From contig CP070719.1 in the NCBI GenBank assembly GCA_020350725.1, forward strand, positions 1,236,234 to 1,247,340: DNA of 11,107 nucleotides, written 5' to 3'. This stretch comes from a bacterium (GTDB lineage: Bacteria; BMS3Abin14). Positions 123 to 11,107 of this stretch are shown one piece after another; position 1 is the first letter of the stretch, and each line of letters starts with the position of its first letter. Position numbers and translations under genes: made by a program. The notes under the pieces are model-generated. The model was not told the DNA's origin and searched no databases. It saw nothing but the letters and a program-made list of their open reading frames with translations.

Positions 123-157
123 TGTCATTGCGAACAGGAAACCGCGTGAAGCAATCT
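123..157. repeat. TGTCATTGCG...GAAGCAATCT interspersed element, half copy
   Basis: The block begins TGTCATTGCGAAC and ends GTGAAGCAATCT. Related copies are at 2892-2929, 10911-10990 and 11081-11107. Only the copy at 10911 carries the second, complementary half, so this one is a half element. Similar TGTCATTGCG...GAAGCAATCTC elements are, from general knowledge, common intergenic repeats in several bacterial lineages. No transposase is nearby. Confidence 0.75.
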
Positions 158-159
158 AT

Positions 160-439
160 AACCGTAAACCGTGAACTGGGAACTAGTATTTACTAATCAC
201 CAATCACGGCGGTTTTCAACTGTGAACGGAGAACCGTGAACTTTCTTTTTGGATTTTGGACTTTGGATTTTGGATTCAATACCGAATCACAAGTCACGAA
301 TCACCAATCACGGCGGTTTTCAACTGTGAACCGTGAACGGTGAACTGTTAACTGGTCTCTTCGAATCACCAATCACGAATCACAAATCACGGCTGTTTCC
401 CAACCGTGAACTGTCCTTCAGGATTTTGGATTCAAAATC
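160..439. repeat. Long heptamer array 1 with unbroken 7-base register
   Basis: Reading 7 bases at a time from 160 gives 40 units in one register up to 439 although the core changes. AACYGTN units come first (160-187), then AATCACN (195-208), a linker and NGAACNN units (223-243), GGATTTT-type units (251-278), ATCACNN units (286-313), GAACNGT units (328-348), AATCAC units (363-390) and a GGATT block (419-439). A 33-base composite at 195-227 and 299-331 is found again at 3046-3078 and, with one change, at 4860-4892. The array runs into the 3' end of the MFS gene, whose stop codon (418-420) lies inside it. Confidence 0.85.
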
Positions 440-2704: not shown

Positions 2705-2879
2705 CGCGGGGACCTACCCGAGGGGGCGATGGGGCGAGGGGGAGAAATGAGTCCAGAGCCCAGAGGCCAGCGTCCAGAGGGGGCGCATGGGTGAGGGGGA
2801 GAAATGAGTCCAGAGCCCAGAGGCCAGCGTCCAGAGGGAGACGCGGGGACCTACCCGAGGGGGCGATGGGGCGAGGGGG
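2705..2879. repeat. Nested direct repeats: octamer block (x2) and GYCCAGA block (x2)
   Basis: An identical 38-base octamer-period segment lies at 2705-2742 and 2842-2879 (137-base offset); its units include CGCGGGGA, CCTACCCG, AGGGGGCG and ATGGGGCG. Between and overlapping them, an identical 46-base segment lies at 2736-2781 and 2793-2838 (57-base offset). It holds four heptamers of the G[T/C/G]CCAG[A/C] type. The two duplications are perfect, which points to recent expansion by recombination or slippage. A diverged relative is at 4641-4772. The leading edge lies about 50 bases upstream of the rarD start, so any rarD promoter must sit in or next to it. Confidence 0.85.
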
Positions 2880-2940: not shown

Positions 2941-3101
2941 TCTTTTTGGATTTTGGGCTTTGGATCTTGGATTCGCCACCGAATCACGAATCACAAATCA
3001 CGGCGGTCTCAACCGTGAACCGTGAACCGGTCTTATCGAATCACAAATCACCAATCACGGCGGTTTTCAACTGTGAACAGTGAACCGGGAACTGTCTTTA
3101 C
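2941..3101. repeat. Heptamer array 2
   Basis: Units of 7 bases run in one register from 2941 to 3101. TCTTTTT and GGATTTT-type units (2941-2975) are followed by ATCACNN (2983-3003), linker CGGTCTC, AACCGTG-type (3011-3031), linker CTTATCG, AATCACN (3039-3059), linker GCGGTTT, then NGAACNG (3074-3094). The block order matches array 1. The first 34 bases differ at only two positions from the matching part of array 1 (starting at 244). The array ends about 13 bases from the stop codon of the DUF5661-like gene. Confidence 0.85.
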
Positions 3102-4640: not shown

Positions 4641-4772
4641 GGGACCTACCCGGGGGGGCGATGGGGAGATGGGGAGAAATGAATCCAGAGCCCAGAGGCC
4701 AGGGTCCAGAGGGGCATTGGTGGGGGGGAGATGGGGCGAAATGAGTCCAGAGTCCAGAGTCCAGCGTCCAGA
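4641..4772. repeat. Diverged octamer and GYCCAGA heptamer block
   Basis: GGGACCTACCCG followed by GGGGGGCGATGGGGAGATGG matches the octamer block at 2705-2744 with changes. Heptamers of the NYCCAGN type run at 4683-4710, then a second G-rich stretch, and GTCCAG[A/C] runs at 4745-4772. This repeats the two-copy layout of 2705-2879, but the copies have diverged, so this locus looks older. It lies upstream of the K+ channel gene. The stretch 4530-4640 between them holds no recognisable promoter. Confidence 0.75.
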
Positions 4773-4795
4773 GGGAACGCTGAATAAAAAAAGCG

Positions 4796-4914
4796 AATCA
4801 CCAATTACGAATCACGAATCAGGGTGGTCTCAACTGTGAACTGTGAACCGGTCTCTTCGAATCACCGATCACGGCGGTTTTCAACTGTGAACCGGGAACC
4901 GGGAACTGGTCCTT
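4796..4914. repeat. Heptamer array 3
   Basis: Seventeen 7-base units in one register run as follows: AATCANN type (4796-4823), linker GTGGTCT, NAACNGN type (4831-4851), linker TCTCTTC, NATCAC type (4859-4872), linker GGCGGTT, then NTGAACN/GGGAACN type (4887-4907) and GGTCCTT. Block order and linkers match arrays 1 and 2, including the 33-base composite at 4860-4892. The array ends about 40 bases from the stop codon of the FMN-binding protein gene. Confidence 0.85.
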
Positions 4915-4955: not shown

Positions 4956-5846
4956 TTACTTCTGCATGGCGTTTGCAACCGCCTTGAGGAGCACCTTGCT
5001 GGTTGTGGTGGCGCCGGTTATGGCGTCCACACCGGGACTCTGGAGGTTGATCACCTTGACGAAGACGCCCTCCGCATATAGGGCGTAGGGGCTGCGGCGG
5101 TTGGTTGCCGCCTTCACGGACAGGATCATCCCGTCCCTGACGGTGACCCTGACCCGGTAGGTAAAAGAGGAGTCGGCCGCCTCGCCCTCGTAGATGCCGT
5201 CCCCGAGTGAAGCGGGATCGATGTGGCCGATCTCCATGGTCCGGTATCGCTGCAGCGATATCGCGTTGGCCGTGAGGAAGGCCGCCCCCGCCAGGATCAG
5301 CCCCCCCACGACGATCCTCACCGTCGTGGGGCTGAAACGGCTTCTGCCGGTCCGACTTCCCCACGGCTTGAGGACGGAAACAAAAGCGAGGATGGCCAGG
5401 ACGGACAGTCCGGCGGCCATCGCCCCGACTCCCTGGCGAAACAGGTTCCGATACAGGGGATCGGCCCCCTCGATGGAGAAAAACCCGTCCGCCAGGGCGA
5501 CCATCCCGTTCACCGCCGGCACCAACCACAGAACGGTGATGATGGAGAGGGTGGCCGCCCCTGCCCACTTGACCGTAACCCAACGATGCCTGATGAATCC
5601 CCATTCGGTCAGGAGCGAGTACAACGTTCCGGTGACGATCGATGCGAAAAAGGGGTAGATCACCGCCATATTCATGACATTGAGCAGGACGATGTCCACC
5701 GTGAGCGGGTCCAGTTCATCTCCCAGGGAATATTTGACCCGCATCAGGACGCAAAGAGAGACGAGGCCCCCGATGCCTACGGCCGCCGATAGGATGTGAA
5801 GCCCCTTGAGCCAGCGCTGGGCTCGGACACTCAGCATCCAGGTCAT
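4956..5846 (-). CDS. Five-helix membrane protein with C-terminal FMN-binding domain
   Basis: This is a 296-residue protein. The N-terminal part has four helices (about 15-36, 55-76, 94-113, 137-160) resembling DUF2269-type small membrane proteins (LKGLHILSAAVGIGG at 13-27). A fifth helix (175-196) leads into an FMN_bind domain (about 208-293). That domain ends in DAITGAT (274-280), which fits the Dxx[S/T]GAT motif flavinylated by ApbE, as in NqrC and RnfG; T280 would carry the FMN. Basic loops RHRW (86-89) and KPWGSRTGRSR (160-170) suggest that both are cytoplasmic, which places the FMN domain outside the membrane. The likely role is extracytoplasmic electron transfer with an unknown partner. 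The start ATG has only a weak GGTG upstream; M4 is an alternative. The gene is preceded by a promoter candidate at 5924-5952. No apbE is in the window. Confidence 0.87.
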   Translation of the reverse strand: MTWMLSVRAQRWLKGLHILSAAVGIGGLVSLCVLMRVKYSLGDELDPLTVDIVLLNVMNMAVIYPFFASIVTGTLYSLLTEWGFIRHRWVTVKWAGAATLSIITVLWLVPAVNGMVALADGFFSIEGADPLYRNLFRQGVGAMAAGLSVLAILAFVSVLKPWGSRTGRSRFSPTTVRIVVGGLILAGAAFLTANAISLQRYRTMEIGHIDPASLGDGIYEGEAADSSFTYRVRVTVRDGMILSVKAATNRRSPYALYAEGVFVKVINLQSPGVDAITGATTTSKVLLKAVANAMQK

Positions 5847-8425: not shown

Positions 8426-8447
8426 GTTGGGCGTGCGGCGCGAATCT

Positions 8448-9788
8448 ATGAGCGAGTGCCTCTCTTCATATCCATTTCCCGGAGGTTCCCATTGTCCCGG
8501 GGGTCAGACGGTCTTCGATCGCCCGCTCCTGGATCGGAGACGTTTTCTGGGGCTGTGCGGCACAGGGCTATGCCTTCTCTCCACAGCCTTCCTCCCTCCG
8601 CCGGCGAGAGCGGCGGGAAACAGGGCGTCCCGAAAAGGGATGATCAGGACAAAGCTCTCCCCCTATTTTACGGCGCTCGAAGGCGCCGCCGTCCGGTGTG
8701 AACTCTGTCCCCGCCGGTGCCGCGTCGAGGAGGGGGGCCGGGGTTTCTGCCGGGTGAGGGAAAACCGCGACGGCAAATACTTCAGCCTCGTCTACGGCAA
8801 TCCCTGCGCCGTTCATCTGGACCCCATCGAAAAGAAGCCCCTTTTCCATGTCCTCCCCTCGACCTGGACCCTCTCCATCGCCACCGCCGGCTGCAACCTG
8901 GCCTGCAAGTTCTGCCAGAACTGGGAGATCTCTCAGGCCTCTCCCGAGGAGGTATACAGCTTCGATTTTCCTCCGGAGAGGGTGGTCCAGGCCGCGGTTG
9001 AAAGCGGCGCCAGGTCCATCGCCTATACCTATGTCGAGCCCATGGTCTTCTTCGAATACATGATCGACATCTGCCGGCTGGCGAGAGAAGCCGGCCTCCT
9101 GAACATCTGCCATTCCAATGCCTTTGTCCGCCCGGAGCCGCTCCGGGAGCTCTGCACCGTGATGGACGCAGCCAACTGCGACCTGAAGGGCTTCACGGAG
9201 GATTACTACCGCGACATGTGCAGAGGGCGTCTCGGTCCGGTTCTGGACAGTCTGAAAGCGATCAAGGACCACGGCGTTCATCTGGAGATCACCAACCTCG
9301 TCATCCCCACCAGGAACGATGATCTCTCCCGGGTGGAGGATATGTGCCGGTGGATCCGCGGGGAACTCGGCGATGAGACACCGGTTCACTTCTCGCGGTT
9401 CTATCCCCTCTACAGGCTGCGGAGCCTGCCCCCGACCCCGGTATCCACCCTGGAGAAGGTCCGGGCCGCGGCCCTCTCCACAGGCCTTCGCTTCGTTTAC
9501 ATCGGCAACGTCCCGGGCCACGCGGGACAGCACACATCCTGTCCCGGCTGCGGAAAACCCATCATCGTCAGGACCGGCTTCATGGTGGAGGCCGTCCATA
9601 TGTCGGACGGAAGGTGCACCTTCTGCGGCAGTCCGGTCCCGGGCATCTGGGCCCGGCGGGACAACCGGGGACAGGCCCTGCAGGGAGGGGGTGACCGGTC
9701 AGCGCCGGCGGAGGAAATCCCTCATCATGAGGGAACGGTCATCGAGGTTGGTCAGGCCGGCCTCCTCGGCCCAGGAGATCGCCTCTAA
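8448..9788 (+). CDS. amrS: Tat-targeted AmmeMemoRadiSam-type radical SAM enzyme (AmrS family)
   Basis: From ATG at 8448 this is 446 residues; a TTG at 8427 and a GTG at 8433 are in frame upstream, and no start has a clear ribosome site. Residues 30-55 form a twin-arginine signal: RRRFLG (30-35), a hydrophobic stretch, then ARA (53-55) as a possible cleavage site. The mature part matches the AmrS family: CELCPRRC (84-91) with C101, the radical SAM cluster motif CNLACKFC (C149, C153, C156), and a C-terminal CPGCG...CTFCGSPVPG ribbon. Partners AmmeMemoRadiSam A and B are not in the window. The reaction is unknown. The conserved part ends with GIW at 9650. The last 45 residues are low in family character, and the final 90 bases overlap the opposing gene, so the tail may come from a lost stop. 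A cytoplasmic start at M65 lacks a usable ribosome site. Confidence 0.92.
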   Translation: MSECLSSYPFPGGSHCPGGQTVFDRPLLDRRRFLGLCGTGLCLLSTAFLPPPARAAGNRASRKGMIRTKLSPYFTALEGAAVRCELCPRRCRVEEGGRGFCRVRENRDGKYFSLVYGNPCAVHLDPIEKKPLFHVLPSTWTLSIATAGCNLACKFCQNWEISQASPEEVYSFDFPPERVVQAAVESGARSIAYTYVEPMVFFEYMIDICRLAREAGLLNICHSNAFVRPEPLRELCTVMDAANCDLKGFTEDYYRDMCRGRLGPVLDSLKAIKDHGVHLEITNLVIPTRNDDLSRVEDMCRWIRGELGDETPVHFSRFYPLYRLRSLPPTPVSTLEKVRAAALSTGLRFVYIGNVPGHAGQHTSCPGCGKPIIVRTGFMVEAVHMSDGRCTFCGSPVPGIWARRDNRGQALQGGGDRSAPAEEIPHHEGTVIEVGQAGLLGPGDRL

Positions 9789-10742
9789 GAACTCCTCTCT
9801 GGTGATGCCGCGGGCTATCCTGGGGTATTCGTAAGCGCGGTATTCCACCCGGTACTGCGGCATGATATTCACGTAGGTGGACCGGGGCAGTTCTCTGGCG
9901 ATCCACTGGACGAGCTTCTCCGTCCCGGCCACCCTGTTGGGCATGACCAGATGCCTTACGATCAACCCGCGCCGCGCGATCCCTTCCTCATCCGTCTTCA
10001 GAACGCCCACCTGGCGGTTCATCTCGACCAGGGCGTCCATGGCGACCTCGGGGTAATCCGAGGCACCCGGCGAGTAGGTGGCCGCCTGTTCCGGATCCAT
10101 GTACTTCATGTCCGGCAGGTAGATGTCCACGACGCCGTCGAGGAGATGGAGGATCGTAAGGCGTTCGTAGCCGCTGGTGTTGTAGACCAGGGGTATGCGA
10201 AGGCCCTCCTTCATGGCGATCCTGGCGGCATTGAGGATGTTGGGCATGACGTGGGTGGGGGTGACGAGGTTGATGTTGTGACAACCCCTTCTCTGGAGCT
10301 TCAGCATGATCCGGGCCACCTGGGCGTCATCCATCTCCCTCCCCTCCCCCCTGTGGGAGATCGGCCAGTTCTGGCAGAAGACGCAGCGCAGGTTACAGTT
10401 GGAGAAGAAGATCGTCCCCGAACCGTTATGCCCCACCAGCGGCGTCTCCTCACCGAAGTGGGGGTGGGCGCTGAAGACCACCGGCCGTAACGGGGCCCGG
10501 CAAAATCCCCTCTCCCCTTTTGACCGGTTTACCCCGCAGCGGCGGGGACAGAGTTCGCACTCCTCGAAGATGGCGTAGGCCCGATCGATCCTCCCGGCGA
10601 ACTTCCCTTCAGCCTCCAGGGTCCTGTAGGAAGGCCGCCAGGGTTCCCTGTCGCCCCATCCTCTCCGGGCCGAGAGGGGTAGGATGGCCAGACTGCCCAG
10701 GTAGCAGGCATGCTTGATGAAATCCCGGCGGGTTAACCTCAT
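9699..10742 (-). CDS. Tat-targeted PflA/PflX-like radical SAM protein
   Basis: This is a 347-residue radical SAM protein of the COG1313/PflX-like type. The N-terminus is a near-ideal twin-arginine signal, TRRDFIK (4-10), followed by a hydrophobic stretch to about residue 24; no clear AxA cleavage site is seen, so it may stay anchored. CELCPRRC (62-69) and C81 form a cysteine set like that in the AmrS-type neighbour. CNLRCVFC (C116, C120, C123) binds the radical SAM 4Fe-4S cluster. Downstream segments NLVTPTHV, YNTSGYE and DIYLPDMKY are typical of the family barrel. The ATG start has GAGG four bases upstream. The gene is convergent with the AmrS-type gene and overlaps its 3' end by 90 bases. 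Substrate is unknown. Export of a SAM-dependent enzyme is unexpected, because SAM is a cytoplasmic metabolite. Confidence 0.9.
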   Translation of the reverse strand: MRLTRRDFIKHACYLGSLAILPLSARRGWGDREPWRPSYRTLEAEGKFAGRIDRAYAIFEECELCPRRCGVNRSKGERGFCRAPLRPVVFSAHPHFGEETPLVGHNGSGTIFFSNCNLRCVFCQNWPISHRGEGREMDDAQVARIMLKLQRRGCHNINLVTPTHVMPNILNAARIAMKEGLRIPLVYNTSGYERLTILHLLDGVVDIYLPDMKYMDPEQAATYSPGASDYPEVAMDALVEMNRQVGVLKTDEEGIARRGLIVRHLVMPNRVAGTEKLVQWIARELPRSTYVNIMPQYRVEYRAYEYPRIARGITREEFLEAISWAEEAGLTNLDDRSLMMRDFLRRR

Positions 10743-10908: not shown

Positions 10909-10910
10909 GT

Positions 10911-10990
10911 TGTCATTGCGAACCAATACTTGAGTGAAGCAATCTCGACGGCCGAGACTGCTTCGGCCCTGAAACAGCCTCGCAGTGACA
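10911..10990. repeat. Full 80-base palindromic TGTCATTGCG element
   Basis: The outer arms TGTCATTGCGA (10911-10921) and TCGCAGTGACA (10980-10990) are inverted with one mismatch. The inner arms GAAGCAATCTCG (10936-10947) and CGAGACTGCTTC (10953-10964) are also inverted with one mismatch. The element could form a cruciform or an RNA hairpin. It is the only complete copy here and encodes nothing. It looks like a small non-autonomous mobile (MITE-like) or REP-like repeat, but no target duplication was recognised. Confidence 0.8.
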
Positions 10991-11022: not shown

Positions 11023-11078
11023 CGCGGGGACACGGGGACCTGCCCGAGGGGGCGAGAGGGCGAGGGGGCGAACAAGCG
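11023..11078. repeat. G-rich octamer block with unbroken 8-base register
   Basis: Seven consecutive octamers run CGCGGGGA, CACGGGGA, CCTGCCCG, AGGGGGCG, AGAGGGCG, AGGGGGCG and AACAAGCG. It repeats the layout of 10857-10908 and is followed at once by another TGTCATTGCG element. The short piece 10991-11022 between the units is unique and featureless. Confidence 0.8.
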
Positions 11079-11080
11079 GT

Positions 11081-11107
11081 TGTCATTGCGAACAGGTACT
11101 CAAGTGA
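11081..11107. repeat. TGTCATTGCG element, cut by the window end
   Basis: The segment begins TGTCATTGCGAACAGG and continues to AAGTGA at the last base. It is the fourth copy in the window; whether it is a half or full copy cannot be seen. Confidence 0.7.

Follow-up and report, generated by a model that had tools for sequence, protein, structure and literature searches.

The question raised by this locus is what kind of sequence forms tandem 7-base repeats of several different words within the same intergenic gaps of a bacterial chromosome. The window, by which we mean the whole stretch of 11,107 bases that was analyzed, covers positions 1,236,234-1,247,340 of a single-contig genome of 2.78 Mb. 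Its gene content is ordinary, including MFS and EamA transporters, an ion channel, an FMN-binding-domain protein, a spermidine-synthase-domain membrane protein, and two radical SAM proteins. The mechanical ORF ends of the latter two genes (8427-9788 on the plus strand and 9699-10742 on the minus strand) share about 90 bases in a tail-to-tail overlap. The heptamer arrays are confined to three intergenic gaps, and an Rfam search of these gaps returned no family.

The strong 7-base periodicity that had been claimed for three stretches was borne out, with z scores of 6-12 against shuffled sequence. Identity at lag 7 was 0.564 for 160-439, 0.506 for 2941-3101, and 0.527 for 4796-4914, compared with 0.24-0.25 in 300 approximately dinucleotide-preserving shuffles (z = 11.6, 7.0, and 6.4, respectively). 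Several cores are indeed present (AATCACn, GTGAACn, and TTTGGAn), and CCAGAGn adjoins them. At the start of the window, a minus-strand quartet of GTGAACn/GGGAACn (4 units, 45-72) faces the plus-strand AACnG block that begins at 164, a GTGAACn-type block of 3 units (GTAAACC GTGAACT GGGAACT, 164-184); these two form the sole convergent pair in the window and flank a GTCATTGCGAAC...GAAGCAATCT element. Further blocks follow on the plus strand, namely AATCACn (2 units, 195-208), GTGAACn (3 units, 222-242), a TTTGGAn (GGAYTTT) quartet of exactly 4 units (248-275), an AATCACn quartet of exactly 4 units (285-312), a GTGAACn quartet (4 units, 326-353), and a second AATCACn quartet of exactly 4 units (364-391). 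The next series, also on the plus strand, opens with two CCAGAGn quartets of 4 units each (2753-2780 and 2810-2837, the second being a tandem copy of a 57-bp unit) and continues with a TTTGGAn quartet (4 units, 2945-2972), AATCACn (3 units, 2982-3002), GTGAACn (2 units, 3015-3028), AATCACn (3 units, 3039-3059), and GTGAACn (3 units, 3073-3093). The last series, again on the plus strand, contains two CCAGAGn quartets (4 units each, 4685-4712 and 4747-4774), an AATCACn quartet (4 units, 4796-4823), GTGAACn (2 units, 4836-4849), AATCACn (2 units, 4860-4873), and a GTGAACn/GGGAACn block (3 units, 4887-4907).

The original prediction also held that all cores keep a single common 7-base register, and this part did not survive. 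AATCAC starts at phases 6, 5, and 0 (mod 7) within 160-439, at phases 0/1 within 2941-3101, and at phases 1/2 within 4796-4914, and GAACnG shifts too; the apparent register is an artefact of picking a new rotation for each core. The linkers, which had been described as 7 or 14 bases long, are fixed in length, but not all are multiples of 7. All 27 of 27 junctions from GGATT to AATCAC have a linker of 8 nt, 51 of 54 junctions from GAAC to AATCAC have one of 11 (or 11+7) nt, which equals 14 when counted from AAC, and the linker from AATCACn to AAC (AACnG) is mostly 8-10 nt. Two features had been overlooked: the cores are organized in blocks of four units, and one position in every seven is free.

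The arrays are built from blocks of about 30 bp, each a run of four heptamers in which six bases are fixed and one is free, and four is the modal number of units in most word families. Counting arrays with at least three units at 5/6 identity to the core, we found exactly four units in 90 of 112 AATCACn, 83 of 90 CCAGAGn, and 41 of 70 GTGAACn arrays of the source genome. In the congener G008, the corresponding numbers were 23 of 25 for ATCTCAn, 21 of 30 for GTGTCTn, 20 of 26 for ACGCAGn, 24 of 36 for AATCACn, and 11 of 15 for another family, and in a second congener, G002, they were 42 of 64 for ATCTCAn. Exceptions were seen in G002, where arrays of three units equalled or outnumbered those of four for GTGAACn (14 versus 13) and ACGCAGn (11 versus 7). 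In an alignment of sixty ATCTCAn quartets from two species, the core positions hold 1.6-2.0 bits per base and the free base 0.2-1.0, while the flanks mostly fall to 0-0.3 bits past the first base or two. Neighbouring free bases agree below chance in the source genome (0.17 versus 0.29 for AATCACn; 0.17 versus 0.45 for CCAGAGn), which is the opposite of recent duplication, although some families in the congeners reverse this trend.

Period 7 is also prominent at the genome scale, where all our counts refer to sampled stretches rather than whole genomes. From the source genome, 0.8 Mb was sampled in 40 stretches, of which the first twenty were picked for arrays and the second twenty were evenly spaced. 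They contained 377 period-7 segments representing 92 consensus words, as compared with 8, 75, and 6 segments at lags 6, 8, and 9, respectively, and a single period-7 segment in the codon-shuffled control; a 50-kb control from E. coli K-12 had zero period-7 segments. Arrays with different vocabularies occur in other genomes of the same family, at densities of 40-44 period-7 segments per 100 kb in G008 and G002, 21 in G007, 8 in G003, and 6 in G001, and there were zero heptamer arrays in the 53 kb sampled from G009. Since about 45% of the sampled 60-600 bp intergenic gaps in the two congeners G002 and G008 hold an array, whole-genome composition is concerned. The pattern of four AATCACn was also found in Bacteroidota, Lysobacteraceae, Nostocales, Verrucomicrobiota, Desulfonema, and others; three AATCACn in a row were present in only 13 of 290 spread genomes, about half of them from the same family. 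Within the source genome, array density at about 1.45-2.5 Mb (evenly spaced samples L038-L052) is far below that at 0.27-1.4 Mb, a contrast that is partly selection because the low-coordinate samples had been picked for arrays. The sampled contigs of G009 (L279-L283) have a mean GC content of 0.40 versus 0.55 in its genus-mate G003.

Dominance of period 7 across some 90 words is what would be expected from neutral slippage combined with concerted evolution, in which the polymerase favours 7-nt slips (the footprint idea of Mrazek 2007) and the arrays are functionless. Among the long SSRs of most bacterial genomes, heptanucleotide repeats were reported to be the most frequent class (Mrazek 2007, as summarized in PMC4679880), and the arrays of the window share with that class tandem 7-bp units that are over-represented and mainly intergenic. 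Long near-perfect arrays, such as about 15 copies of GGGAATA in G008, and the 7-nt indels between paralogues also fit slippage, as does the greater likeness of words at orthologous sites than of permuted ones. However, the class is marked by slippage-like variable copy number, and most words here have a sharp four-unit mode despite the existence of a few long arrays. Moreover, slippage would copy the free bases, the adjacent ones of which agree below chance for AATCACn and CCAGAGn in the source genome (with the reversal in some congener families noted above). For these reasons, and those given below, we regard slippage as a serious contender that is nonetheless rather unlikely.

The arrays also come in convergent pairs. 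The ratio of inverted to direct orientation for same-word neighbours was 26:3 in G002 and 23:5 in G008, while random pairs gave 9-12% inverted matches; these pair counts, like the indel counts below, are non-independent. Close pairs of ATCTCAn in the congeners comprised 21 convergent and 0 divergent cases, and their spacers of 20-86 bp (mostly 35-65) are no more alike than shuffled spacers. Likewise, AATCACn in other phyla formed 20 convergent and 0 divergent pairs with spacers of mostly 28-64 bp. Four units were again the most frequent number in those phyla (71 of 159), these loci having been chosen for at least four AATCACn, so that arrays of fewer than four are under-counted there. In the source genome, co-oriented neighbours outnumber inverted ones by 71 to 35, mostly within composite islands, and inverted doublets are only a minority.

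In addition, the modules have a polarity relative to ORF ends, as taken from a mechanical ORF caller. An ORF end lay within 25 bp on the 5' side of the ATCTCAn module in 39 of 54 cases and on the 3' side in 4 of 54, and it was a start or a stop about equally often (28:26). For AATCACn in other phyla, 68 of 99 modules abut an ORF on the predicted side versus 17 of 99 on the other. Neither strict convergent pairing nor polarity to ORF ends is accounted for by slippage. Several further readings of the orientation were rejected. Replichore polarity is ruled out by the mixture of strands. A role as 5'UTR or terminator is contradicted by the main words, which have no clear gene-orientation bias, the polarity tracking the ORF boundary at starts and stops alike. 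A device placing stop codons in all frames (7 being 1 mod 3) fails as well, as the words have no consistent stop enrichment; stops exceed expectation only in the other-phyla set that was selected for AATCAC, and in the distinct words there they do not.

Inverted arms invite the explanation that the quartets are the stem arms of hairpins under selection in RNA or in single-stranded DNA, for example as terminators or mRNA stabilisers. The arms are about 88% complementary at core positions, and one congener has a word change shared by both arms (ATCTCA to ATTTCA). But G-U mismatches do not exceed A-C ones in the transcribed strand (77:84), and free bases facing each other agree only as often as chance predicts (0.29 versus 0.27), an observation on which homogenisation of the two arms by template switching was rejected as well. 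A stem would not need the arms to be always convergent and never divergent, unequal arms occur (5 versus 2 units), and many arrays are single or co-oriented. We therefore consider hairpin selection quite improbable and, because the signatures of strand pairing are missing, duplex DNA as the likely target.

A single process that could, by inference only, yield the fixed step, the fixed number, the free base, and the convergent arms is templated repeat addition by a reverse-transcriptase-like (telomerase-like) enzyme acting at both ends of a break, with four 7-nt cycles and one poorly templated base. Matches to RVT_1 are absent from both the source genome and G008, and orthologous arrays have changed little in the course of inheritance. 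Templated addition is thus largely refuted for the source genome unless the enzyme falls outside RVT_1, and we judge it very improbable overall.

Comparison between species demonstrates how the arrays change. At four orthologous loci, counted from alignments, 4 of 120 core bases had changed as compared with 6 of 21 free bases (Fisher p = 8e-4). At the first of these loci in the congeners, 48 of 48 core bases are identical in both arms and 2 of 8 free bases changed, while about a quarter of the flanking bases differ. At the second locus the arms differ by whole units (5 versus 2), and in a third species the word is altered from ATCTCA to ATTTCA in both arms together. A core that evolves more slowly than the free base is again contrary to slippage, and the far greater change of the free base than of the other six points to selection on hexamers spaced by 7 bp. 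The proposed test of whether indels are enriched for 7 was run on paralogous arrays, where 7-nt indels are indeed enriched (52 cases, while 6-nt indels number 10 and 8-nt indels 18, in non-independent pairs), indels of 1 nt being the commonest (305). Accordingly, the earlier argument that slippage of one microsatellite is insufficient and that 7-base steps matter was upheld both by this enrichment and by the excess of changes at the free base.

At a larger scale, 29 array islands of G008 could be matched to an orthologous gap in the sampled part of G002, and these gaps contained the same word in 5 cases, a different word in 17, and no array in 7. Arrays therefore persist at 22 of 29 orthologous gaps as compared with 45% of gaps overall (p = 7e-4). 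Word turnover must be fast, because most orthologous gaps (17 of 29) hold a different word. The idea that words at orthologous sites drift in concert was abandoned, the signal being weak once same-word loci were removed (P = 0.05). In one set of matching gaps, L206 (about 5174-5287, G008) carries (GGGAATA)~15 and L214 (contig C20 of G002, about 35250) carries (GTGAACC)n; both arrays are long and near-perfect and follow a gene whose G008 version is the shorter one.

Contiguous 7-bp subsites on duplex DNA are known from the omega/parS system of plasmid pSM19035 (PMC9499535), in which RHH-type dimers each cover 7 bp of a WATCACW heptad, full activity requires four or more heptads in a row, and both direct and inverted order are tolerated, as in our arrays. 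AATCACn, the most frequent word here, comes in blocks of four, with a conserved core and a free edge base; its quartets agree remarkably with parS in core, step, and number, although the seventh base is unconstrained where parS has W and this is one word family among the others. Against host-maintained binding arrays of the omega/ParB-parS type, the source genome has no match over the cut-off to PF07764 (Omega_Repress) and only one match to RHH_1, yet about a dozen or more words. The hundreds of chromosomal sites beside gene starts and stops alike are also unlike one regulon or centromere, and we find this explanation unlikely.

The dispersal of the arrays has its closest parallels among mobile elements. 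Like REPINs of the REP-RAYT system (PMC3116915), the arrays of the congeners and of other phyla are short, extragenic, high-copy inverted doublets around a less conserved spacer. They differ from REPINs in that the arms are direct heptamer repeats rather than GTAG/CGTC-tagged palindromes, and in having many word families per genome. Any link to RAYT would be putative: the source genome has two Y1_Tnp (RAYT-type) genes with arrays nearby, yet 45% of gaps carry arrays. MITEs are likewise short inverted-repeat elements without genes, but they share their interior, whereas the spacers here are unrelated between copies, and neither a target duplication nor a clean empty site was seen in the alignments of orthologous gaps, whose divergence is too high for either to be demonstrated.

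The fixed number of subsites, the unread base, the strict convergent order, and the slow change of the core look like properties of a binding site, and the arrays are scattered across hundreds of gaps, amid spacers and flanks that are unrelated, much as REPINs are. Therefore we favour, tentatively and at somewhat short of an even chance, the reading that the arrays are dispersed, paired, non-autonomous elements of REPIN/MITE-like logic, whose arms would be read by a putative protein in 7-bp steps. The underlying module is a sequence of about 28-30 bp with four contiguous 7-bp subsites, each made of six fixed bases and one base that is free, and many module families, or words, exist. A convergent pair would constitute a short interspersed element, and its arms would be recognized as duplex DNA by a presumably oligomeric protein stepping 7 bp over four subsites. 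Such reading, together with the loss of core-damaged copies, could keep the word and the number of units, while occasional slippage by one subsite or unequal exchange would produce the 7-bp indels. In the source genome, the modules are in addition strung co-oriented into composite islands with linkers of fixed length. Against this proposal stand the facts that the reading protein was not found, that 17 of 29 orthologous gaps have a different word, and that neighbours in the source genome are mostly co-oriented.

With respect to described repeats, the heptanucleotide SSR/STRR class (PMC4679880), such as TAACTGA of Beggiatoaceae, is similar in being tandem, mostly intergenic, often gene-adjacent, and present across phyla; here, in contrast, there are many words per genome, mostly four units, a free base, convergent pairs, and polarity to ORF ends. 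In MacGregor's genome, unlike here, TAACTGA-related heptamers are rarely or never direct repeats (PMC4679880). The GGGANTN repeats of Xanthomonas are also similar (PMC4692102): most have four units, many are arranged as convergent pairs (70-75 per genome), and they have degenerate positions and lie in intergenic regions near an ORF on one side. They were attributed to G-quadruplex formation (PMC4692102), whereas AATCACn, ATCTCAn, and CCAAAGn follow the same rules without G runs, and quartets of AATCACn, ATCTCAn, CCAGAGn, and GTGAACn lack the four tracts of at least three G that a G-quadruplex takes. By analogy, GGGANTN looks like one more word of the present class, which would make the G-quadruplex explanation unnecessary. 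The original statement that no many-core class has been described thus needs to be narrowed, since heptamer repeats and GGGANTN quartets are known; it would still hold for a many-word class with fixed number, pairing, and polarity, and these rules, across words and phyla, appear undescribed.

A broader possibility, which we find conceivable but on balance doubtful, is that these arrays belong to a cross-phylum class of intergenic elements defined by geometry and not by sequence, in which each of four 7-bp subsites has six bases that are read and one that is not, the pairs converge at gene boundaries, and the word can be exchanged between loci and species. If true, there would have to be a so far undescribed protein family that reads DNA in 7-bp steps and whose specificity is easily changed. 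One word keeps the same polarity in Lysobacteraceae, Bacteroidota, and the source lineage. The dominance of period 7 in bacteria was recognized in 2007, and no cause of it has been put to the test. With the rules of mostly four units, free base, pairing, and ORF polarity it becomes a testable question about binding sites, and these rules undercut the polymerase-footprint and G-quadruplex accounts as general explanations.

Other repeats accompany the arrays. The GGTTGTCATTGCGAAC...GTGAAGCAATCT element, a short imperfect palindrome that is frequent across the genome in the same orientation as the heptamer blocks, adjoins such blocks at window positions 125-158, 2890-2927, 10910-10942, and 11082-11107. 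An Elusimicrobia locus (L122) has a TGTCATTGCGAG...CAATCT sequence beside AATCACT units. A CCCTTCGACAGGCTCAGGGC palindrome recurs within AACnG heptamer blocks, as if inserted, at about 550480, 892841, and 1752033 of the source genome (L018, L026, and L042). Finally, period 8 ranks second among the basic periods of the sampled genome (75-103 segments), and octamer arrays of the CGAGGGGG and GGGGACGC type are located at window positions 2719-2742, 2856-2882, and 11045-11071.
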